NCBI GenBank assembly: GCA_019054805.1
Contig: JAHQIY010000005.1
Coordinates: forward strand, 248,001-312,000
DNA from: Brachionus manjavacas
Lineage: Eukaryota > Rotifera > Eurotatoria > Ploima > Brachionidae
DNA: 64,000 nt
Direction of reading: 5' to 3'
Shown: positions 12,182-59,255 of the stretch, piece after piece
How positions within the stretch are numbered: the first letter of the stretch is position 1
How the letters are laid out: each line of letters opens with the position of its first letter
Made by a program: the position numbers and the translations under genes
Notes under the pieces: model-generated
The model's database searches: none
Told to the model about the DNA's origin: nothing
The model's input: the letters and a program-made list of their open reading frames with translations, nothing else

Positions 12182-13456
12182 ATAAAAATGAATGGTCAAA
12201 TAGATTACCAGTCGAGTGACTATTCGAACAAATATTCTAACCAGAGCAGCTTTTACAGCAGCGCACACCAGCCCAACATAACTGTGCACCATGCCCAGTA
12301 TCCTCAACAGCAGTACAACTTTAACCAGCAGTACACCAACTACTATCCATCTCAATACGACTACTCTTTCAGTCAGATTCAGAACCAGCAGATAAGCAGC
12401 GTGCAGACGGCGAGCTTGGCCCAGGCTCCGTCCATAACGCCACCGCCGTCCAACACCAACACCCCGACACCCCTCTATGCCAATTCATCTCACTACCAGC
12501 AGCTTGTGGTCGAAAAAAAGAACAAAAGCATGAAGCCAAGTCGATGTCTGACCAGTCTGCTGACCAAAAAAGAAAACGATGATTTTCACAAAAATGAGGA
12601 CGACGACGAAGACGAGGATCTGAGCGACGAGGACGAGGACGACGACGACGACAGCCGCTTTGACTCACTGTACAAACACAAAAAACAAAGTGACCTGGAC
12701 ACCGAAAACGACTACGAGATAAAGCACAATTGCCTGAGCGAGCAGGGCGCCTACATGAACAGTCTTTTCAACTCGCCGTCGTCGCTCTCGTCGCAATCAG
12801 GCAAGGGCAGAAGGGTGAAGAAGCAGGAGAGCATGGTGGTGACCAAAATGGAGCGGAGCGATGTGAACGAAACAAGTTTGGCCCAGTATGGACAAGAGAA
12901 CCAGAGCTGCACGCAGCAACAGCACATAAACAACATGATAAATAGCTACAATCTGGCAGGCATCATGAACGACTATGATCTGGTCAACTTGCCGCTTAGG
13001 GAGCTGAACAAGCGGCTCAGGTTTTTGCCCAAACAAATGGCCTACAATATGAAAAAGAGGCGACGCACACTCAAGAACAGAAAGTATGCGCAAAACTGTA
13101 GATCAAAGCGTTTGGAGCAGAAGAGTGAAATGGAAATTCAGAACAGTCAGCTGAAGGTCGAACTGCAGCGATTGAACAAGCTGACCGAAAAGCTGCAGCA
13201 GGAAAATAGCTATCTGAGGTCGTGTCTGAATTCGAACAGTGGCAAGAGTTTAGATGACATTTTGGATAGCAGCAAGACGATGTCGTCCATGTGCCAAAGT
13301 GATTCGAACAGTTTGCCGTCGTCCAGCACGCCGCTGACACCCACTACCCCGACAAATTGTAACCAGTTGACCCAGTTGTTATCGTTGCCGCCGGCTCACT
13401 ACAATTCTCTACACTCTCATCAGACCAGCTTTAACAATATTCACATAACCAAATAA
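12182..13456 (+). CDS. maf: Maf-like bZIP transcription factor, main exon
   Basis: The frame encodes 422 residues from the ATG at 12188 (plus about 40 if exon 1 is used). The N-terminal third is rich in Gln, Tyr, Ser and Asn, as in activation domains. An acidic Asp/Glu run lies near residues 137-156. The extended homology region reads LVNLPLRELNKRLR (about residues 261-275). It is followed by a basic region KKRRRTLKNRKYAQNCRSKR and a leucine-zipper coiled coil to about residue 345. The Tyr and Cys of NRxYAQxCR together with the extended homology region are diagnostic of Maf proteins, which bind MARE-type DNA sites as dimers in the nucleus. Family members usually have RGYAQSCR; here it is RKYAQNCR. 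The tail is rich in Ser, Thr, Pro and Gln. The large-Maf N-terminal motif is not evident, so I leave the subfamily open. Confidence 0.9.
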   Translation: MKMNGQIDYQSSDYSNKYSNQSSFYSSAHQPNITVHHAQYPQQQYNFNQQYTNYYPSQYDYSFSQIQNQQISSVQTASLAQAPSITPPPSNTNTPTPLYANSSHYQQLVVEKKNKSMKPSRCLTSLLTKKENDDFHKNEDDDEDEDLSDEDEDDDDDSRFDSLYKHKKQSDLDTENDYEIKHNCLSEQGAYMNSLFNSPSSLSSQSGKGRRVKKQESMVVTKMERSDVNETSLAQYGQENQSCTQQQHINNMINSYNLAGIMNDYDLVNLPLRELNKRLRFLPKQMAYNMKKRRRTLKNRKYAQNCRSKRLEQKSEMEIQNSQLKVELQRLNKLTEKLQQENSYLRSCLNSNSGKSLDDILDSSKTMSSMCQSDSNSLPSSSTPLTPTTPTNCNQLTQLLSLPPAHYNSLHSHQTSFNNIHITK

Positions 13457-28370: not shown

Positions 28371-29050
28371 AATAATAGTAGTAGTAGTAGTAGTTCTTGC
28401 TGCGACACCTAACATGTAGATTGTCTAAGCCCATCACCGCCAATTGGCCGTGTAGAGCTGTAGCAGCCGATTCCATTGAACTTATCTAAAGCCATTTTAA
28501 AATTAGCGGTTGACTTGGATTTCACCACGTTTTCTGGCAACCTATTCCAATGCGGAACTACTCTGTTTGAGAAAAATACATGTCTGCATCCAGATCTTTC
28601 TGTAACATCGCTCTCTCATAAACATTATTAACTATACCGAGTATTTTTGAGTCATCTGCATACAATTCCATTTTATTTGAAACGCAGTCAGGTAGGTCAT
28701 TTATGTACAAAACAAATAGCAGGGGTCCCAGTACAGATCCTTGCGGAACTCCACTCAGTACCTCTGACCATCTAGAAACTCCATCTCCAAGTACAACTCG
28801 CTGAGTTCTCATACTCAAAAAGTCTTCGAGCCAATTTACTATTTTCTCACCTAGTCCATAACCACGTAGTTTATGAAGAAGTCGTTGATGCGGTACCGTA
28901 TCAAAAGCCTTTGAAAAGTCTAATAGTATTTCATCCACACTGTTACCTTTGGCCAACTCAGTCGTGATCATATCAAGCGTTTCAAGTAGATTCTTTACAC
29001 AACCTTTCTTTGGAACAAATCCATGTTGACTTCCAATTATTAGATTATTC
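28371..29050 (-). mobile_element. CR1-like LINE, internally deleted, with (TAC)n tail
   Basis: The minus strand encodes RT motifs in order: LLDFSKAFDTVPHQRLLHKL, SGVPQGSVLGPLLFVLYIND and ELYADDSKI. YADD is the RT active site. Just after the YADD block (near 28565) the frame jumps to the far C-terminal region, FFSNRVVPHWNRLPENVV, so the middle of ORF2 has been deleted and the frame shifted. The element ends in a (CTA)n microsatellite at about 28375-28394, the usual 3' tail of this family. It cannot move on its own. Confidence 0.85.
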
Positions 29051-29144
29051 TCTTGAAGGTAAATAATTAAGGAACTGTTTAGTAAAGAAATAAATGAATA
29101 AAAATAACATGAAAATCAGAAAAAAAACAGATCACATAGAAAAG

Positions 29145-29360: not shown

Positions 29361-29836
29361 ATATTGTTGTTATTGAAGTGTTAAATCGAAAAGGTCCAAA
29401 TAATAGCTCCGTTAATAACTTAAATAGAAGTGTGCACATTTTATTTTAAAGAAAAAGCATTTGATTTAAGAATTTTTTTGGCACAGTTTTCAACAATTTT
29501 AATTTAAAAACTGCATATTTTATATTTGACAACTTTTTTGTCCCTTATTTTAAAATTTCGGATTTTTGAAGACTTCACCTTGTTATTTTTGACACAAAAA
29601 TTGAATAAAAAGTTCGAAAAAAAATTAAATTTTATCTTTTTCCAAGGATTCAATTTTAATTGGAATTTCTTGTGTAAAGCAATAAACTTGAATATTCCAT
29701 CAAAATAGCTACTAATGTATGCTTGATTAATCAAGAAAATAAAAATATTTTCTGATTGTCAAAAAGAATTTTATTACGTCAAAAAAATAACACATAAATG
29801 TTTGAACATTTTTCAAAGTTTTGGTATCAAATAATA

Positions 29837-30406
29837 ATGGGAGGAAAAAACTCAAAAAAGCATACTGAATTAAAAGAAAAAGAAATAAAACTTTTAATTC
29901 AAAAAACCGGATTGTCAAGACAAGAAATACTAGATTGGCACGCTCAATTTATCCAGAGTCATCCAGATGGATTGATAGATATTGCAGAATTCACTACCCT
30001 TTACCGTGAATTCTACCATTATGGAAATCCGGACAATTATGCTAAATTTGCTTTCCAAGCCTTTGATAAAAATAATTGTGGAAAAATATGCTTTTCAGAA
30101 TTTTTAATAGCAACTGCTTTTGCTCTCAACGCGTCCCAAGAAGATGATTTAGAAAAGAGCTTGGAATTTGCGTTTGACGTTTATGATGTTGACGACAATG
30201 GCAAAGTTGAAAGAAACGAAGTAGAAATGCTACTCACTGCTGTTTATCAGTTAAAAACAGGAACAGGTGACTATAACTTTCAGCATATCATAGATGAGAT
30301 TTTTAGATACTATGACACGGATGCAAATGGTTATTTGAACAAAAGAGAGTTCATAGTTGCTCTTCTTAATGATGAATGTATCAGAAATTACCTATTGATA
30401 AATTAA
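29837..30406 (+). CDS. Neuronal calcium sensor (NCS/visinin-like) protein
   Basis: 189 residues, the usual NCS length. I chose the ATG at 29837 because it gives MGGKNSKK, an N-myristoylation signal; the in-frame ATG at 29798 would bury it. Four EF-hand regions are visible. EF1 is degenerate (HPDGLIDIAEF, typical of NCS proteins). EF2 is DKNNCGKICFSEF, EF3 DVDDNGKVERNEV and EF4 DTDANGYLNKREF, the last three with acidic ligands. These proteins bind Ca2+ and move to membranes to regulate receptors, channels or kinases. EF2 has Asn-Asn-Cys in its loop (DKNNCG), unusual compared with DxDxxG. The frame is intronless and flanked by LINE debris, so a retrocopy is possible, but the frame is intact. 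Confidence 0.9.
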   Translation: MGGKNSKKHTELKEKEIKLLIQKTGLSRQEILDWHAQFIQSHPDGLIDIAEFTTLYREFYHYGNPDNYAKFAFQAFDKNNCGKICFSEFLIATAFALNASQEDDLEKSLEFAFDVYDVDDNGKVERNEVEMLLTAVYQLKTGTGDYNFQHIIDEIFRYYDTDANGYLNKREFIVALLNDECIRNYLLIN

Positions 30407-31336: not shown

Positions 31337-32289
31337 CTTAAAAATTTTTTTATCAATTAATTGATTAGATATTAATTTATTTAATTTTAAATGGAAAATT
31401 TAGTTGATAAAATATTTTTTTTTAGGTTTCGGTGATACTAGTGTGACATAAATAGGTGAAAAAAATTACTTAATTGGTTCACATTAAGGTCGTATAATTC
31501 TTGAGTTGGAAACATTTTTTGTGAATTTAGAATAATGCTTATGTTATCCTTGGCTGCTTTTTTATATGGAAATAAAAGTACAACTCATACAGACCTCTCC
31601 TTTATTTATCAAGAAAGTTTTATAATGAGAAAAAAGTCAAATTTGTCACGAAATTCTAATTTTTTAATATTTTGAAGCTAATTCAAAATCAAAAAGTCGA
31701 AAAATTCTTTTCTTATTCAGTCATAAAGCTGAGCATATTTTAAATTACTTTAATTCAATCAGAATGACCAATTTAGTACTAAAATTTATTTTTCATTTAA
31801 AACTAAAGTATCCATCATTCTAAATTTTTTACTAATTTTAAACAGTTTGATCGATTTGTTAAAATTAGCGGGGATCAAACATTTCTGAATTTTTATCTTG
31901 CCAGTAAACCTTCTTTTACAAAGATTTATTTTGAGCCCCAGTAATCCAGTAAAAAATAAAAAAAAATAAAATTAAAAAAAAAAAAAGGATTATTTAAGTA
32001 CCATTAACACTTTTACTTAATACAATGATTTTTAATTTTACCAATGCTTATTTTTTTAATATAGCTGGGTTTTTTGGACCGTCCAAAAATATGTCTTTTA
32101 TTTCCAAACTCTACTACATTTTAATAATTCCTATAATAAATAATAACTTTTTGAACCAAGTTTCGATGAAAACTACCTAACAAGCTGAACTTTTTTTAAA
32201 TAAACATTTAAACCTCTGTCAGATACTTTATGAAGCAAAACGTTTGCCAAATGGCCACAAACGAAAAATAAAATTTTTTTTTTCATTTT

Positions 32290-33860
32290 TATATTAAAGG
32301 AAAATTAATTACAGAACGTAAAGATATAGTAAAAATAATAAATGACTATTTTAAATCGGTTTTGAACTTGCCGAGTGCAACCGAGAGCGATATTCACTTT
32401 CCTAAAAGAACAGTCAGATTGCTGAGATTGAACCCCGACGTATTCTATAAGCCAGACAAAATTGAAGGATATCTGTCCTCCTTAAACCCTGAAAAATCTC
32501 CTCGACCGGATAGAATGCATCCATTGCTCCTTAAAAATTGCTTTAAAGAAATCTCATGCGCACTTTTATTAATATTTATAAAGCCATTTAATGAGGGTGA
32601 ACTACCAAAATTACGGAAGAAAGTAAATGTATCTCCTATACACAAAAGTGGATCAAAAATGGACATTAAAAATTAAAGACCGGTTTCACTAACTTAAATA
32701 GTCGGCAAGGTAATGAATATAATGCTTAAGGATGAGATAATGAACTATTTACTAGAATACAATTTAATCTCTAATAGACAGCATGGGTTTTTTCCTTAAA
32801 GATCATGTGCAATAAACCTATTAGAGTTCATTGATAAAGCAACTATTGAATTTGAAAAAGGCAAAAATTTTGACATTGTGTATACTTACTTCTCAAAGGC
32901 TTTTGATAAAATTCCTCATGGAAAACTGATAAAAAAACTTGAATCATATGGTATAAATGGTAAATTTCTAGGCTGGATTGAATCGTTTTTGATTCGGCAT
33001 CCAATTGAGAGGTAGTTACAAGCGGAGTACCACAAGGATCCGTACTTGGTCCAATCCTATTTATAATTTAAATCAATGATCTCCTTGAGAGCTTCAACAG
33101 TTTCTGTCTAAGATATGCTGATGACTTAAAATTCATTGATCTCTCCGAATTCTCGAACGTAGGATCATTAGAACTTCAGAAAAACCTCGATCTCCTAATG
33201 GAGTGGACAGAAAATTGGTCAACAAATCTAAACAAAAACCTTAACAAATGTAAAGCAATGTATCTAGGAAAGAGAAATGAAAAAGCCAAATAATTATTAT
33301 CAAACCAAAATATATCTTATTTCCTAGAGGAGATAACAGAAGAAAAGGTTTTGGATGTTTTTATTTCAAATGATTTGATATGGAATAAACAATGTACTGT
33401 AGCAGATATGAAAGCTAACCGAATACTGGGTCAAATAAGAAATTCTTTTAAGAACCTTAGCTAAGAATCATTAAGACTTCTCTATGCATCACTTGTGAGA
33501 ACCAATCTGGAGTATGCAGTAGGAACCTGGAGTCCGTATTTAAAAAAAGACATTATAATTCTTGAAAAAGTGCAAAGAAGAGCGACAAAACTGATTGATT
33601 ATACCAGAACCAAGTCTAATGAAGACAGATCGAAATATTTGAATCTAATAAAACTTGAAAACCGTAACAAATCTCTGTGTAAAATTATGGAACAGCTTAT
33701 CAGTTTATGCTGTTAGTGCGCAAACAATAAATAGCCTTAAAGCAGTCATTGAAAATTAAGTTTTTGGAATGGTGAAAAGCAAAGTCTGCCAAACAAACGC
33801 TTTCGAGCGTTGGTGTAGATATAAATATCTATACTGCAGATACTACTACTACTATTTTTT
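32290..33860 (+). pseudogene. Decayed CR1-like LINE (RT region to 3' end)
   Basis: A plus-strand LINE ORF2 broken by many stops and shifts. Blocks in order: SLNPEKSPRPDRMHPLLLKN (finger region, 32362-32676), then RPVSLT, YFSKAFDKIPHGKLIKKLES, the 'GVPQGSVLGP' block near 33035 and the RYADDLKF block near 33112 (frame-shifted). Then NLEYAVGTWSPYLKKDIIIL and LEKVQRRATKLI (33495-33716), the conserved tail region. It ends in (TAC)n at 33840-33854. Same family type as 28371-29050. Confidence 0.85.
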
Positions 33861-44425: not shown

Positions 44426-44536
44426 AACGAGTCTAGTATTTTTTGTAAAAAAAAAAAAAAAATAAAATTCAAAAAAATTTTAATAAATTTTCAAAACTGC
44501 TGAAACACATTCGTCCAGCTATCTGACACTGCCAAA

Positions 44537-45567
44537 ATGGTCAATGAGGCAAGTCAAATTCTGAACGACCAACAAACATATCCCAACCACGTATACCCAA
44601 TTAGAAACCAATTATCATACGCTTCTAAAGTGAGACAAGCACCATACGAAGCCCCATCCAAGTCAAACAACAATCGTCTAAATCATCAACCTAATCACAA
44701 CAAGTTAAACTCCCAAAACAATCAATATACAAATATAAATCCACTCAATAATCAGGAACAAACAACAATTAATTACAGACGTCCAAATGCCAACGACTAC
44801 AGCTACCCGAATCTAAATGACTACTATCATCAACACCTACACCCGTATTTTCTGAACTTTCATTACCAACCAAACAATCTAATTCAAATATCGAAAAAAG
44901 ATCAATCTCAACAAATTCATCAAAATCAAGCACACCAACCTGAGCTCCATCAAATCGAGCAATCACAGGATCAACAAGCACAAAATTTTCAAATCGAGGG
45001 TTCTTATATTCTAGACAAGCTATACACATATACATTCGATTTTGGAATTACAGAGATTACGAAACATAACAAACACTATCTTGCTCTACATAATGGGAAA
45101 CCAATTTTGAAATTAGCTCACAGAGATCAAGAAGCTATTTGAAAGAAAACTACAAAATCGACGATACACTCCGAATGGTCCAAAAATCAACTGGTGTAAA
45201 ACTAAAGCTAGTCAAAGGAGTAATGTCCTACACTGATAAATTCAATCAAATAATCAAAGATAGACATATAAAAATTGGATACTCCAGAATAAGAGTAACC
45301 GCATGGAGGTTCAACACAATGCCAGATCAGTGCTTCAAATGTCAAAAGCTGGGTCATGCAGCAGCGAAATGCCAAGAGAAACAGTTCACTTGCTTGAGAT
45401 GCGCAGGAGACTATATCTACAAAGATTGTTCAATCAAAGATCCAAAATTTTTAAAGTGTAAAAACTGCATGGACAACCATACAGCCTGCTCAAAAAATTG
45501 CCTAGTCCTAATCAAAGCAATAGAAACCAAAAATAAAAAGCAAGAAGAGAAAAAAAAAAAAAATTAA
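44537..45567 (+). pseudogene. LINE ORF1 (gag-like, zinc knuckles), frameshifted
   Basis: Two overlapping frames (44537-45142 and 45139-45567) make one ORF1 split by a frameshift near 45139. The first part (201 codons) is Asn/Gln/His-rich. The second carries three zinc knuckles in tandem: CFKCQKLGHAAAKC (intact CCHC), CLRCAGDYIYKDC (the His is replaced by Tyr) and CKNCMDNHTACSKNC. Three such knuckles at the C-terminus are typical of ORF1 proteins of Jockey/I-group LINEs, which coat the element RNA. A short Lys-rich end follows. Confidence 0.8.
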
Positions 45568-45819
45568 TAAAGGCAAAACCACACAAAGAATTGAATCAAC
45601 TTTCAATAAAGATGCTCTATCGCAAACCCAGACTATCAATATTCTTAACCTAACTATTGAACTTTTCAAAAATATCAGAACCCTATGTACCGCTGTTCAC
45701 GAAGATCCAGCTCCTATTCTAAAAATCATAACAGATAATCTTGGTATAAAAACAGCAATCATATTGAGCAATTCATTTTTGCTAACCAAGATGAACAGGA
45801 CCCAATCATGCTTTTCAAT

Positions 45820-48360
45820 CAAATAGATAATGAATATAAACAATCATAAAAAACTCAAATTTCTACACATTAACTGCCAATCGATTTCAAGTTCTTCAAA
45901 AACGATTCAAACCCAAGATTTATCATCAAATTCAATGTGGATTTTATTAGCCTCAACGAGACTTTCTTTAAAGAATCAAGCGATTTTAAAATTGCCAATT
46001 TTTCTAATATTAGATCAGTTCGGCTGAATAAAAAAGGAGGAGGCAACGCTCTAGGGATAAAAAAAATATAATTGGCGAAGAGATACAACTCGATGAATTT
46101 GAGGAAACAGTTGGTTTCAAAATAAAAATAAACCAGAAAGACGAGGTCGCTATCTTTTCGACCTACTCAAGTCCCTCCATAAAACTGAATGAAAAATTCT
46201 TTGAGTTTGTATCAAAAACATTCAAATACTTCCTAATTCTAGGAGACTTAAATGCTAAAAGTTTTGAATGGCTGTGTACAACCGAAAACTCAAAAGGATC
46301 TGTTCTTGAGGCTATTATTGAACGGCAAAATCTAATTATCTTAAATGACAGCACACCAACTTTCAAGAGAAGCAAAAAAATACTAGATCTATTGATTTGC
46401 TCTAATCAATTATTTAAGTTTCCAAGTCTTACCAGATGTGATCAGTGATTACCAGCCTAAAATTAAATTTCTATCTCACCTAGAAGTAGAACAGCGTGAA
46501 TTCAAAATAATTAACTGGAGAAAATTTCAAAGAGATTTTATCCAGAAAATCACAGGATGGAATCAAACAAAGCGATCTAAGCAGTGAATCAGAACTTGAT
46601 CACGAAGTTGCATCAGTAACCCATAATGTTAAGTCAGCACTTACTGAAGCAACTATAAAATTCAAAATAAAAAATGCCCAAAAACAAATGGTTCAAGTCC
46701 CAATTGAAATTTTTAAAAAAAATCAAACAAAAAAGAAAGCTTAGAAAACTTTATAAAAACTCAAACAATCCTGCTCACAAAAACTTTTCAATATTTTTGA
46801 GAGGAAACTAAAGAATGAAATAAGAGTTTATAAATCAACCAAACTTGAAGGCGAACTAATTAAGCTAAAAAATTTCAACCAGTAACAGTCAAAGCACTGG
46901 AAACTATTGAAAAGAATAAGCCGTACAACTGATCAAGTTTCAGAGAAAATCAGATGTCAAGACAACAACATAACGAACGACTGTCAAGAAATTTCAAATC
47001 TATTCGCAGATAATTTAGCCAATATCTTCACCGACAACAGACCACAGTTGGACAACATCAGTAGTACTGAAGACACATCCTTTTATCTACATGAAGATAA
47101 CCATGCAATGAACATATCACGAAAAGAAATGATTAACTCGTTAACTGGCACTAAAACAAAAGCGTCACCAGGCTTCGATGGCATCACTAATAAAGTTCTC
47201 AAAAATCTCCTCTTTAACACATTATGTTCGATCCAGGCAATTTTCAATGCATCTCTCAGACTTGGATACATACCATCAATATGGAAAAAATCAGAAATAG
47301 TAATGATATTGAGAAAGAATAAGCCACCTGACAATTTAACATCATACTTATTTCACTTTTAAACTGCTTAGTGAAGTGGCTCGAAAAAATTATCAATACT
47401 TAAATACAAACTTGGACAGAAAGTGAAAATATTCTTCCGCTAAGTCAATCTGGATTCAGGAGAAACAAAAGTACCCAAGACCACATTCTTAGAATAAATC
47501 AATCAATCGTTGATTGCTTCAATCGAAATGAATTAACTGGAGCTTTTTATTTTGACCTTGAGAACGCCTTTGATAAGACATCCCATCGTGGAATGATAGC
47601 CAAATTAAAAGATCAAAATATCCGCAGTTTTTTGTTAAACTGGATCTGAAATTTCCTAAATGACCGATCATTCCAAGTTTGTCTCAATCAAACCTTATCA
47701 CTTGAGAAGTCAATAACTTGTGGGGTCAATCAAGATAGTTGTCTCTCACCGACCTTGTTTATTCTTTTCTTTAGTGACATTGCCTACAGTTTGCAAAAGG
47801 AAGTAAAAATTGCACTGTTTGCGGACGATGTTTGCATATGAATTACAAGAACCTCTGAAAAAGAAATTGAGCGTCTCCTTCAAGATGCAAAAGAGAAAAT
47901 TGTTGAGTTTTGCAAAAAATGGGGCTTCAAAATAAATAAAACAAAAACATGCCACACTACTTTCACATGAGCCGGTGCGAGAAGCAACTACGAAAGAAAA
48001 TACAAGCTAAATATCAAAATTGAGCAAGAAGAGGTACCATTAGAGCAGAATCCAACCTTTTTGGGCCTCAGACTTGATCCAAAACTTGCCTACACAGCAT
48101 ATCTACATGACATTACAAAGAAACAGACGTCAAAATTAAAATTTAATCCGTAAAATTAAAAGCTTTAAATGGAGTTCATCTCTAAGAATAAATTTAATCC
48201 TCTATAAAACTTTAATCCGCTCATTGTTCGACTACTGTTTCATTATATTAAATTCGGGAACAGAAAAAATAAAGCTTAAACTAATAAAGATGCAAAAATT
48301 TTTTTATAAATTTTTTTCCTATTAAAACAAACAATACTATGCATAAGTACTTAAAATTGT
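45820..48360 (+). pseudogene. LINE ORF2 (endonuclease-RT), decayed
   Basis: The frame starts KLKFLHINCQSI (endonuclease start). It continues in shifted frames through the GDLNAKSFEWLC block near 46240. RT blocks follow: KASPGFDGITNKVLKNLL (47150), SQSGFRRNKSTQDHILRI (47446), FDLENAFDKTSHRGMIAKLK (47550) and FADDVCI (47820), where Phe replaces the usual Tyr of YADD. The tail block PTFLGLRLDPKLAYTAYL is at 48052. At least half a dozen stops or shifts. With ORF1 this gives an almost full-length Jockey/I-like element of about 3.9 kb. Confidence 0.85.
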
Positions 48361-52813: not shown

Positions 52814-52964
52814 ATACAGTGCTTTATAAAAGGGCCAGAACCGGCTAAACTAGTTGGTTTCTTACCAACTAATATTCACGTTAGATTACGGAAGCTTAGA
52901 AATTAAAAATAATGTAAAATTACCTAGTTTAGCCGGTTCTGGACCTTTTTTAAAAGCACTGTAT
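52814..52964. mobile_element. TA-flanked MITE, about 147 bp
   Basis: CAGTGCTTTATAAAAGGGCC at 52816 and its near complement ending at 52962 (…AAAGCACTG) are inverted ends of about 40 bp, sharing CCAGAACCGGCTAAACTA. Both ends are bordered by TA. CAGTG ends with a TA target are characteristic of Tc1/mariner-type MITEs. Confidence 0.8.
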
Positions 52965-53057: not shown

Positions 53058-53464
53058 CGTTCGATTATGCTGCACTACAAGTTAAAACACGCCTTTTGAC
53101 CATCCACCAAAGTACATCTCGCCCATGCTATAATATTTTTACTTTGATGCCGCAGCAGAACTTGAATTTTATTATTTTTTTAATCGAAAAATATAAAAAA
53201 TGAATTTTTTAATATTTTTTTATTTCTTGATCTCTGGTGCTGCACCAAATGTATAATTCAAAAAATTGTTTTTTATCTTTTACTTTAAAATCGAGTCCTG
53301 GTGACGTATTCAACTTAGGCTTTCAGTGTTCGATGAGAATCTTAACGCGTGATTACGCTTTTAGAGCATGGGCTCAAATTTAACAATATTATAGCATGGG
53401 CGAGATGTACTTTGGTGGATGGTTCAAAGGTGTGTTTAAACTTGTGGTGCAACATAATCGAACG
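53058..53464. mobile_element. Foldback element, about 407 bp
   Basis: Arms of about 81 bp (53058-53138 and 53384-53464) are inverted at about 88% identity, sharing CCATCCACCAAAGTACATCT and CGCCCATGCTATAATATT. The interior is AT-rich and non-coding. A 90-codon plus-strand frame from 53349 is fortuitous. Confidence 0.8.
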
Positions 53465-54290
53465 AGGGAATACAGTAGTATCTTTTAAAATATTTGTTGA
53501 AATCTTTTTTTATTTTAAAAAAATTTTTAATAAAATAATGGTCATTTTTTTGTTTATTTTTATTTTTAAGCTTTTTTTTATTATCGTCCATGTGGTGTTT
53601 ACTGAAGTAAATAATAATTGATCAGTCAATTAAATAATGGCTAAATATCAATGGATAATCAGATATGATTAAAACTTTACACACTTATTATTAAAATAAT
53701 TTTAATTTTTACTTTATCTTTAATATCAAGTTCTTTACAAAAAAAATTTGCTAAAACTTTTTCTTTTTAAGTCACTTGGGGAATATTGCAAAAAACGACG
53801 AATAGACATTGATTTTTAATGATGTTAATATATATGTGATAAAAACTTCAACTTATTTTAATTATGCACCTGAAGATTCTTTCTACCTTTAAAATTTATA
53901 TTTGATATTATGTATCGACAAAAAAAATTTTCATTTGTCTAAATCTTTTACGAAAACAAATTTTTTATAAGACCAATGCTGGCAATATGTTTTTCCTGAT
54001 TTTTAAATTTAAAATTAAAATAAAAGATTATACAACATAAGAGAACGTCTTGTCATTTTGAGAAATTTAAAATGTCTAATAAAAAGACAACAAAATTAAT
54101 AATTAAAAAAAAAGATTTCTTTTAGTAAGCCTTTTTTGAACTAAATTAGATTTAAATTAAAAATTTAATAAAAAATTTATTTCAAAAAATTCAAAAACAA
54201 TTTACAGTTTAATTCAATTTACAATTATTATTTAAATGTATGTTAAATGTTAATTTTCCTAACAAATTAATTAGTATTTTGCTTAGCACC
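53465..54290. other. No gene seen
   Basis: AT-rich. I searched both strands for a third copy of the neighbouring peptide genes (an AAYCTNTACAGCNTNTAYGG-type end) and found none. Confidence 0.5.
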
Positions 54291-54293
54291 AGT

Positions 54294-54567
54294 CTATTTG
54301 CCATAAATGCTGTATAGATTAAATTTTTGGAAATGATAATCATCCACATTTCTTTTTTTCAGCAAAATTTCTTCACTATTTATGAATTCACGCTCGTTCG
54401 AATCTCTCTTATCTTGAAAATTAAAAACATCATAACAATCTTCTGATTTTTTAACAACTGGATCTAAATAAAACTTTTACTTCAAATCTTTTTTTTTTTT
54501 TAAATCTTTTACTTGCTAAGCTGGATAGAGCCAAAAACAAAATAATCCACAAGTAAGAGAGATTCAT
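54294..54567 (-). CDS. Secreted peptide-hormone precursor B (NLYSIY-amide type)
   Basis: Two exons give 74 residues. Exon 1 (54567-54513) encodes the signal peptide MNLSYLWIILFLALSSLA. A 49-nt intron (54512-54464, GTAAAA...TTTAG) interrupts in phase 1, just where signal cleavage is expected. Exon 2 (54463-54294) encodes a spacer with DKR, then LLKKR and a last peptide NVDDYHFQKFNLYSIY followed by GK and a stop. Cleavage after KKR, trimming of Lys and amidation at Gly would give a 16-residue amide. The layout is that of neuropeptide precursors. The same organisation and C-terminal NLYS[IV]Y occur in the neighbour at 54835-55118. The family is not recognised. It could also be a gut or gland peptide. 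Confidence 0.75.
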
Positions 54568-54600
54568 GTTCAAATTTTTCTAATCAAAAAATTACAAGCT

Positions 54601-54609
54601 CTTTTTATA
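54601..54609 (-). promoter_or_regulatory. TATA-like box of precursor B
   Basis: TATAAAAAG on the minus strand, 34-42 bp before the start codon. The spacing implies a very short 5' UTR. Precursor A has a TATAAA at the same distance. Confidence 0.4.
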
Positions 54610-54834
54610 TGGTGTTAAAAACTCGATTAACAAAAAAACTTGTTGCTTTTTTGAAAAACTTAGTGCTTCTTCAAAAATTACACCAAAAGCTAAAAAAGGA
54701 CGAGCCTTAATTTTTAATTTAAAATTCATCAAATTTTAACTTGCTTGAAAAAAATAAAAAATCTCTTTAGAAAAATAGTTTATTAGACATTAATTAAAAT
54801 TCATAAAAAAAAAATTCTTAAACACAACTAAACA

Positions 54835-55118
54835 TTATCCATAAACACTGTACAAATTCAAAAGAGTAATCGTATAAGGATCAATGTATCTTTTTTTAAG
54901 CTTCTTCTTTGGTACTCTCTCGTCCATTTTATTCTTAAACATTTCATCCGCTGGCAAAATTATCCTCTTAGCTAAATATGCTTGTTCATATGAGCCAACT
55001 ATACTTTCTTCTATCAAGGGACCTTATAAATAATTTTTCAAAAATATTCAATCACTTGAATTCTTAAATTACTTGCACAACAAAGAGATAAAAAGAAAAA
55101 AAAGAAAAACATTTTCAT
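54835..55118 (-). CDS. Secreted peptide-hormone precursor A (NLYSVY-amide type)
   Basis: Two exons give 77 residues. Exon 1 (55118-55073) encodes a signal peptide, MKMFFFFFFLSLCCA. A 50-nt intron (55072-55023, GTAATT...TTATAAG) is in phase 1 at the cleavage site, the same position and phase as in precursor B. Exon 2 (55022-54835) carries LAKR, a Lys-rich run, LKKR and the last peptide YIDPYTITLLNLYSVY followed by Gly and a stop. Cleavage after KKR and amidation would give a 16-residue peptide. Aligned with B, residues 2 (I/V), 3 (D), 5 (Y), 10 (L/F), 11-14 (NLYS), 15 (V/I) and 16 (Y) agree. Tandem duplication is the simplest origin. The receptor-like gene just upstream is a natural candidate partner, but that is inference. 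Confidence 0.78.
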
Positions 55119-58139: not shown

Positions 58140-59255
58140 TTTTATTTATTTATTTGTTTTCTGTATCGAGCTAAAGCTCCTTCAGAATAAGTTAAAAAAA
58201 AAAAAATAATAAAATAAAAATAAAATTAAAGTTAATAAAATGAGATAAAAAAAGAATCAAAAAAGAGTAAAAAAAATGAAAGTTGAAAAGTCATAAATTG
58301 GAAAAGATTGTTACATGTGACACATGCTTAAATAGTTCAAGTTTCAGGATAAAAAGAAGAAATAGTAAGGTAGCAATTACACAATGTAGTTGGGTATTCA
58401 ATATATCTTGATTCGAAACCTTCTTTGTATTCTTTCACCAGTCTTTCAACCAATGGAATAGAATGACTCAGTCCTGTCCCAACATATTTCTCACTCAACT
58501 CAAAAAGACGATTCGAGACTGTTAGTAATTTTAGTTTATTAAAAGCTTCATGTTGCACGATGTTGGAGGGAGTATCATATTTTAACTTAAGGATAGATCT
58601 GACTGCTGTATTCTGAATTGCTTGTAGTTTTTTGATATTATTTTCTGAAAATGAATTCAAGCAAGGAAAAGAATAGTCTAAAATTGATCCGAATAAAGAT
58701 TTATATAAATTTCCAAGTGTGTTTTGATTGAGACCCCATTTTTTGTTTGACCATATCTTAATAATATTTTGTCTTTTATTGCAGCGTTCTTTGATTTCGT
58801 CTACCAGTATATTAAAGTTTAACTTAGAATCAAATTTAATACCAAAAAACTTGATTTCTTTTTGGCTCATTATTCTGTTTCCAAAAATTTTTAAGTTTAG
58901 TTAATCACCCTCTTTTTTGTACCTAGAAAAGACTACTGAACATGACTTTTCAACTGATATCTTCATTCTCCATTTAATAAGCCATTGTTCTAGTTCGTTG
59001 GTGTATTTATTTATCTTATTTTCTAGGTTCCCCTTTTTGTTATAAATGAAGAATGTAACTAGATCATCTGCGAAAAGCAGAGAGTATTCGTTATTTGTTT
59101 TGTTTCGTTTGGGGATGGCATTAATATATATACTAAATAAAAGAGGACTAATTACTGAGCCTTGAGGAACACCTGCAATTATTTGATATTCGTCGCTCAA
59201 GTGGTCATTCACATTTACCTTAAATGTCCTACTATCTAAAAAGGATATAATCCAT
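58140..59255 (-). mobile_element. LINE fragment (RT to 3' end), partly intact
   Basis: Minus strand. 59212-58901 encodes IIAGVPQGSVISPLLFSIYI and EYSLLFADDLVTFF (RT palm with FADD). 58870-58337 is an open frame of 177 codons covering the thumb and C-terminal region (KEIKFFGIKFDSKLNF; LFGSILDYSFPCLNSF; KLQAIQNTAVRSILKL). The two frames are separated by one stop or shift near 58890. The 3' UTR ends near 58160 with CTGAAGGAGCTTTAGCTCGA, a tail shared with scraps at 28190, 28250 and 52165. The 5' end is cut at about 59255 by the next insertion. Confidence 0.85.

Follow-up and report, generated by a model that had tools for sequence, protein, structure and literature searches.

Two tandem genes for probable Tyr-amide neuropeptide precursors next to a predicted class-A receptor gene in the rotifer Brachionus manjavacas

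MIP (allatostatin-B) peptides follow the pattern W(x6)W, SIFamide ends in GSIF-amide, and some NPY/NPF and RYamide/luqin peptides end in Tyr-amide. A single peptide preceded by KKR and followed by Gly is the usual layout of a neuropeptide precursor, while amidation occurs in non-neural secreted peptides too. In the accessible text of PMC8557429, MIPs are described as ending in Trp-amide and the NPY/NPF and RYamide/luqin peptides in RF- or RY-amide, and the protostome receptor group that holds the MIP receptor is activated mostly by amidated aromatic C-termini. The one rotifer neuropeptide precursor described in the literature searched is that of APGWamide/AKH from Brachionus plicatilis, found in silico, which according to the accessible part of PMC10730642 is intronless and contains several APGWamide copies together with AKH. 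The locus described here adds an apparently undescribed family of Tyr-amide peptides.

In a window of 64,000 nt (the whole stretch of DNA analysed, G000:C5:248001-312000 of a 114-Mb assembly of 61 contigs), the minus strand carries two genes, A and B, arranged head to tail (Table 1). We estimate a probability of roughly 0.87 that the two arose by tandem duplication and that each encodes a secreted precursor of a Tyr-amide neuropeptide or peptide hormone. An earlier sequence-only reading had proposed two tandem precursors, each with a signal peptide, a phase-1 intron of 49-50 nt, a KKR site and a 16-residue peptide plus Gly. Translation of the window confirms this, with the coordinates exact, and adds a Lys behind the Gly of B. 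By inspection, the N-terminus is hydrophobic in both translations, as in a signal peptide. Both introns follow GCA A, and in both genes a short peptide has a dibasic site before it and Gly after it. The tail of A consists of KKR and YIDPYTITLLNLYSVY-G-stop, that of B of KKR and NVDDYHFQKFNLYSIY-GK-stop. The computed [M+H]+ values of the two predicted peptides as amides are 1950.026 and 2064.981.

Table 1. Coordinates in the window of the features of genes A and B and of the neighbouring receptor gene
Feature	Position	Strand	Remark
Gene A	55118-54835	-	ATG at 55118, stop ends 54835
Gene B	54567-54294	-	ATG at 54567, stop ends 54294
Precursor A exon 1: signal peptide MKMFFFFFFLSLCCA + first base of next codon	55073..55118	-	
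Precursor A intron, 50 nt, phase 1, GT-AG	55023..55072	-	acceptor and phase also implied by P0001
Precursor A exon 2 including stop codon	54835..55022	-	orthologous to C-terminal 61 residues of P0001
KKR cleavage site of A	54889..54897	-	retained in P0001
Predicted mature peptide A, YIDPYTITLLNLYSVY	54841..54888	-	Gly codon 54838-54840
AATAAA 3' of A	54779..54784	-	
Precursor B exon 1: signal peptide MNLSYLWIILFLALSSLA + first base of next codon	54513..54567	-	
Precursor B intron, 49 nt, phase 1, GT-AG	54464..54512	-	P0005 spliced at same place
Precursor B exon 2 including stop codon	54294..54463	-	
KKR cleavage site of B	54351..54359	-	
Predicted mature peptide B, NVDDYHFQKFNLYSIY	54303..54350	-	Gly 54300-54302, Lys 54297-54299
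AATAAA 3' of B	54176..54181	-	
Single-exon 7TM receptor gene, 324 aa	55271..56245	-	ORF; AlphaFold2; Foldseek; B. plicatilis ortholog

From this layout we infer processing, amidation, release and receptor pairing as follows. Guided by the signal peptide, each precursor would be secreted; a prohormone convertase would cut after KKR and the basic tail of B would be trimmed. An amidating enzyme would then use the terminal Gly to form the amide, so that the products would be YIDPYTITLLNLYSVY-NH2 and NVDDYHFQKFNLYSIY-NH2. Neurons or glands may release these peptides, as transmitter or hormone, and they would act on a class-A receptor. The leading candidate for it is the 7TM protein whose gene directly precedes A in the same orientation. 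A and B would work like an ordinary amidated neuropeptide. The genome has 7 matches to PF01483 (convertase) and 13 to PF03712 (copper monooxygenase of the amidating kind); the latter are no proof of an amidating enzyme, since PF03712 occurs also in enzymes of the dopamine-beta-hydroxylase type.

Short exons in a window of 73% AT could be chance open frames, and the likeness of A and B bears on this. The 16-mers had been said to agree at eight or nine positions; 7/16 are identical, so that eight is attained when Gly is counted (8/17), and three further positions are conservative (I/V, L/F, V/I). The spacers do differ between A and B, as had been proposed: up to the first KR, 4/20 residues are identical, 7.1% of shuffles score as well as the 18 residues preceding the first KR, and the two precursors are hardly alike outside the peptide. 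Dibasic...Gly-stop tails number 44 in 264 kb around the locus, of which 34 were used for pair scoring, the last 17 residues of the other 10 running into a stop. Of the 561 tail pairs that result, A/B comes first with a score of 45, and the next pair has 16. In 200,000 shuffles of peptide B the highest score was 42, so that 45 was never reached, and the highest score of another 17-mer in the 264 kb, all frames taken together, is 32. Within NLYSxYG, A and B show 5 nucleotide differences in 4 codons, three of them synonymous and the fourth giving V/I. The likeness of A and B is far above chance. Chance frames are contradicted both by this, against shuffles and against other tails, and by the B. 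plicatilis orthologs, and we consider them extremely improbable.

On sequence comparison, A and B both have orthologs in B. plicatilis, hidden in P0001 and P0005, two automatic gene models that look faulty, the one a fusion and the other with the peptide spliced out. New with respect to the sequence-only reading are the adjacent receptor, these orthologs and the two models concealing them. A homolog search with the receptor gave four proteins, among them P0001 ('sex peptide receptor-like [Brachionus plicatilis]'), which follows the receptor to mid-TM7 and then passes in frame into the ortholog of A exon 2, ending LKKRYIDPYTITLLNLYSVYG. Compared with A, peptide plus Gly is identical at 17/17 positions and the spacer at 29/44 (Fisher p 0.003), or at 25/40 when LKKR is left out (p 0.002). 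Between species, the mature peptide of A is therefore kept more than the spacer; against the receptor's own 85% identity, however, 17/17 alone is only mildly unusual (about 7%, by our own arithmetic). The inner KR of A is KQ in B. plicatilis, so that of the two sites it is the KKR in front of the amidated peptide that has been retained.

The in-frame join of mid-TM7 to A exon 2 could also come from a genuine transcript, joint or alternatively spliced, for a TM7-cut receptor with a peptide tail, and AATAAA, ATTAAA, AGTAAA and CATAAA are indeed all absent from the gap between receptor and A. However, the donor-like GT at the junction has no GTAAG-type context in the window, the receptor ORF there is complete through TM7 and tail, as it is in P0002 (a receptor from a third source), and A has a signal peptide exon of its own. 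Furthermore, a spliced leader was not found in B. plicatilis ESTs, according to the accessible text of PMC1925144. A joint transcript is accordingly very unlikely, and an operon resolved by trans-splicing is, in view of the same EST result, not claimed.

A homolog search with B led to P0005 (BpHYR1_013123). This model begins with the signal peptide of B, with 17/18 residues of exon 1 the same, crosses exactly the predicted intron and matches B at 40/46 of the first residues. A second intron of the model then removes most of the B peptide, and its next codons, TFMENR, match another frame of DNA that reads TAFMANR in the window. Read back, the next exon would fit an ending -IYG followed by K or E and then by a stop or Q. 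The end of P0005 corresponds to sequence that is 3' untranslated in the window. P0001 and P0005 presumably lie on the same 45,523-nt contig.

The precursor reading gains support from both models, since the peptide of A is conserved in P0001 and the intron of B reproduced in P0005. Conservation of the peptide in a related species had been put forward as its test, and for A it holds over the mature peptide and Gly. In B, conservation is not limited to the peptide, as most of the first 46 residues are kept as well. Homolog searches with A (one candidate, none scored) and with B found no homologs of the precursors outside Brachionus. An intact YIDPYTITLLNLYSVYG, a B peptide ending NLYSIYGK and the order receptor-A-B in rotifers would add further support.

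Upstream of A and in the same orientation lies the receptor gene, whose end is separated from the ATG of A by 152 nt, and P0001 indicates the same adjacency in B. plicatilis. Over the shared part, the protein is identical to P0001 at 240/281 positions and to P0002 at 186/281. AlphaFold2 predicts seven long helices and an ECL2 hairpin (mean pLDDT 76.7, pTM 0.74), and with Foldseek the seven transmembrane helices show the class-A arrangement. Neurotensin, orexin, apelin and NPY Y4 receptors are among the best Foldseek matches, with a sequence identity of 11-17% in the best 50 rows. The neighbour thus shares the overall fold and the ECL2 hairpin with vertebrate class-A receptors (neurotensin, orexin, bombesin, NPY Y4), while differing from them in sequence and, taken alone, having no Pfam match; by predicted fold it appears closest to peptide receptors. 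Pfam gives 0 matches for the receptor, P0001 and P0002, and 5/5 fetched paralogs match PF00001 above the cut-off. A profile of six paralogs matches the same vertebrate group, with bombesin, neuromedin B, chemokine and orexin receptors best. GPR139/142, the vertebrate type related to the sex peptide/MIP receptor, is absent among the 60 best solved structures for this profile. The label 'sex peptide receptor-like' rests on the automatic NCBI name of P0001. Searched against the genome, the receptor gives 26 matches with E values no higher than 1, one of which is the receptor itself; the two best others are 28 and 32% identical. Three of the paralogs form a small cluster within 25 kb on one strand (G000:C2:3027429-3051741). 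No relatives were confirmed in prokaryote and viral contigs.

It is possible, although doubtful, that the neighbouring 7TM protein is the receptor for the A and B peptides. Rather probably, the precursors are real and the receptor is an unrelated gene, adjacent by chance, with the peptides using another class-A receptor. Such receptors are numerous, with at least 154 PF00001 matches in the genome, and with up to 25 paralog matches a coincidence is possible at a few percent, as a rough estimate. Flanking sequence was read for five paralogs (about 2.3 kb of 3' flank each), plus one piece beside a paralog on contig C2 (L049). No NLYSxY-type precursor was found beside the five, so that linkage is no rule in the family; a few dibasic...Gly-stop tails occur in the flanks, on either strand, and were judged by eye not to be precursors, none of them being similar to NLYSxY. 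In addition, close relatives keep their gene order even without function. Against mere coincidence stand the shared strand, the short gap, the adjacency in B. plicatilis and the resemblance to peptide receptors. The preference of the MIP/sex peptide receptor group for amidated aromatic C-termini, as given in the accessible text of PMC8557429, would moreover suit Tyr-amide if the automatic name is right. With gene order preserved by default and so many class-A receptors in the genome, the neighbour is a sensible first candidate and not a conclusion. It is likewise possible, although doubtful, that the receptor and the genes of its own two Tyr-amide ligands, within 2 kb and head to tail, form a self-contained signalling module, kept since before the split from B. 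plicatilis and possibly co-regulated. The locus offers a receptor ready for testing. Should the neighbour prove to be the receptor, the physical linkage of ligand and receptor would make deorphanisation and joint evolution directly testable in a culturable animal.

Among the known systems, MIP/allatostatin-B and the sex peptide (MIP) receptor are alike in the amidated aromatic C-terminus, which is predicted in A and B, and in the automatic name of the neighbour's B. plicatilis ortholog. The peptides themselves are no MIPs: they are predicted to end in Tyr-amide and contain no Trp, in contrast to the Trp-amide of the accessible text of PMC8557429. The likeness to SIFamide, a lead only, lies in peptide B, whose predicted C-terminus FN-x(1-2)-SI-aromatic-amide is similar to the SIFamide motif. 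However, A and B end in SVY and SIY, with Tyr for Phe, they have NLYS[IV]Y in place of GSIF, and peptide A is without FN. The RF- or RY-amide ending of NPY/NPF and RYamide/luqin is likewise lacking, as there is no Arg in either peptide. The APGWamide/AKH precursor is similarly a rotifer neuropeptide precursor, but as far as the accessible part of PMC10730642 goes its peptides are unrelated to those of A and B, which differ also in having introns. The Tyr-amide pair is apparently undescribed, as the sequence-only reading had held for a family ending NLYS[IV]Y-amide: no Pfam family fits, neither NLYSVY nor NLYSIY occurs in the literature searched, and the accessible texts on rotifer neuropeptides (including PMC10730642, PMC8557429 and PMC6188537; most subscription journals, preprints and supplements lay outside this scope) do not describe the peptide.

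Rotifers use waterborne signals, and the cell type of expression is not readable from sequence alone. The precursors might therefore yield secreted short peptides of other use, in a gland secretion, as a pheromone or as an antimicrobial, and the occurrence of amidation outside the nervous system allows for this. Typical antimicrobial peptides are cationic, unlike peptide A, which has no basic residue, and peptide B, with one Lys and one His; the layout, furthermore, is that usual for neuropeptides. Another use thus seems unlikely, and a neuropeptide or peptide hormone is the preferred reading.

In the search for further copies, the first genome-wide motif pattern had 8 matches against 9 in the reversed control and the second 13 against 20; all of the 17 distinct places that the two gave were read in frame, and A and B alone are precursor-like. 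A KR...YG-stop at C3:2010274 was rejected, since its KR is immediately preceded by a stop codon and no acceptor AG lies between the two. With a relaxed pattern there were 30 matches (reversed control 174), and 8 of the 28 places besides A and B were read in context, six of them fetched and two from the earlier patterns. None of the six fetched places holds a precursor. One place, C2:3046408, near two receptor paralogs, resembled a second ligand-receptor pair and was rejected, the sequence there being no precursor. No third copy was seen in the 264 kb around the locus, and a protein search of the genome with A exon 2 matched only itself, missing B and thus proving insensitive. No third gene was found by these insensitive searches, and a diverged third copy may exist.

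A scan for bacterial-type promoters stayed at shuffle level and is irrelevant for the locus. Downstream of A and B there are two inverted repeats, possibly remains of mobile elements: 53058-53141 with 53381-53464 (84-nt arms, 92% complementary, 239 nt apart) and 52823-52860 with 52917-52954 (38-nt arms, 87% complementary). Elsewhere in the window, frames at 28558-29115, 32272-32676, 44504-47362 and 58337-59254 are, by eye, reverse-transcriptase-like and resemble pieces of non-LTR retrotransposons. Also judged by eye, a long frame at 12182-13456 has a bZIP-like basic region, and 29798-30406 encodes a single-exon, EF-hand-like calcium-binding protein.
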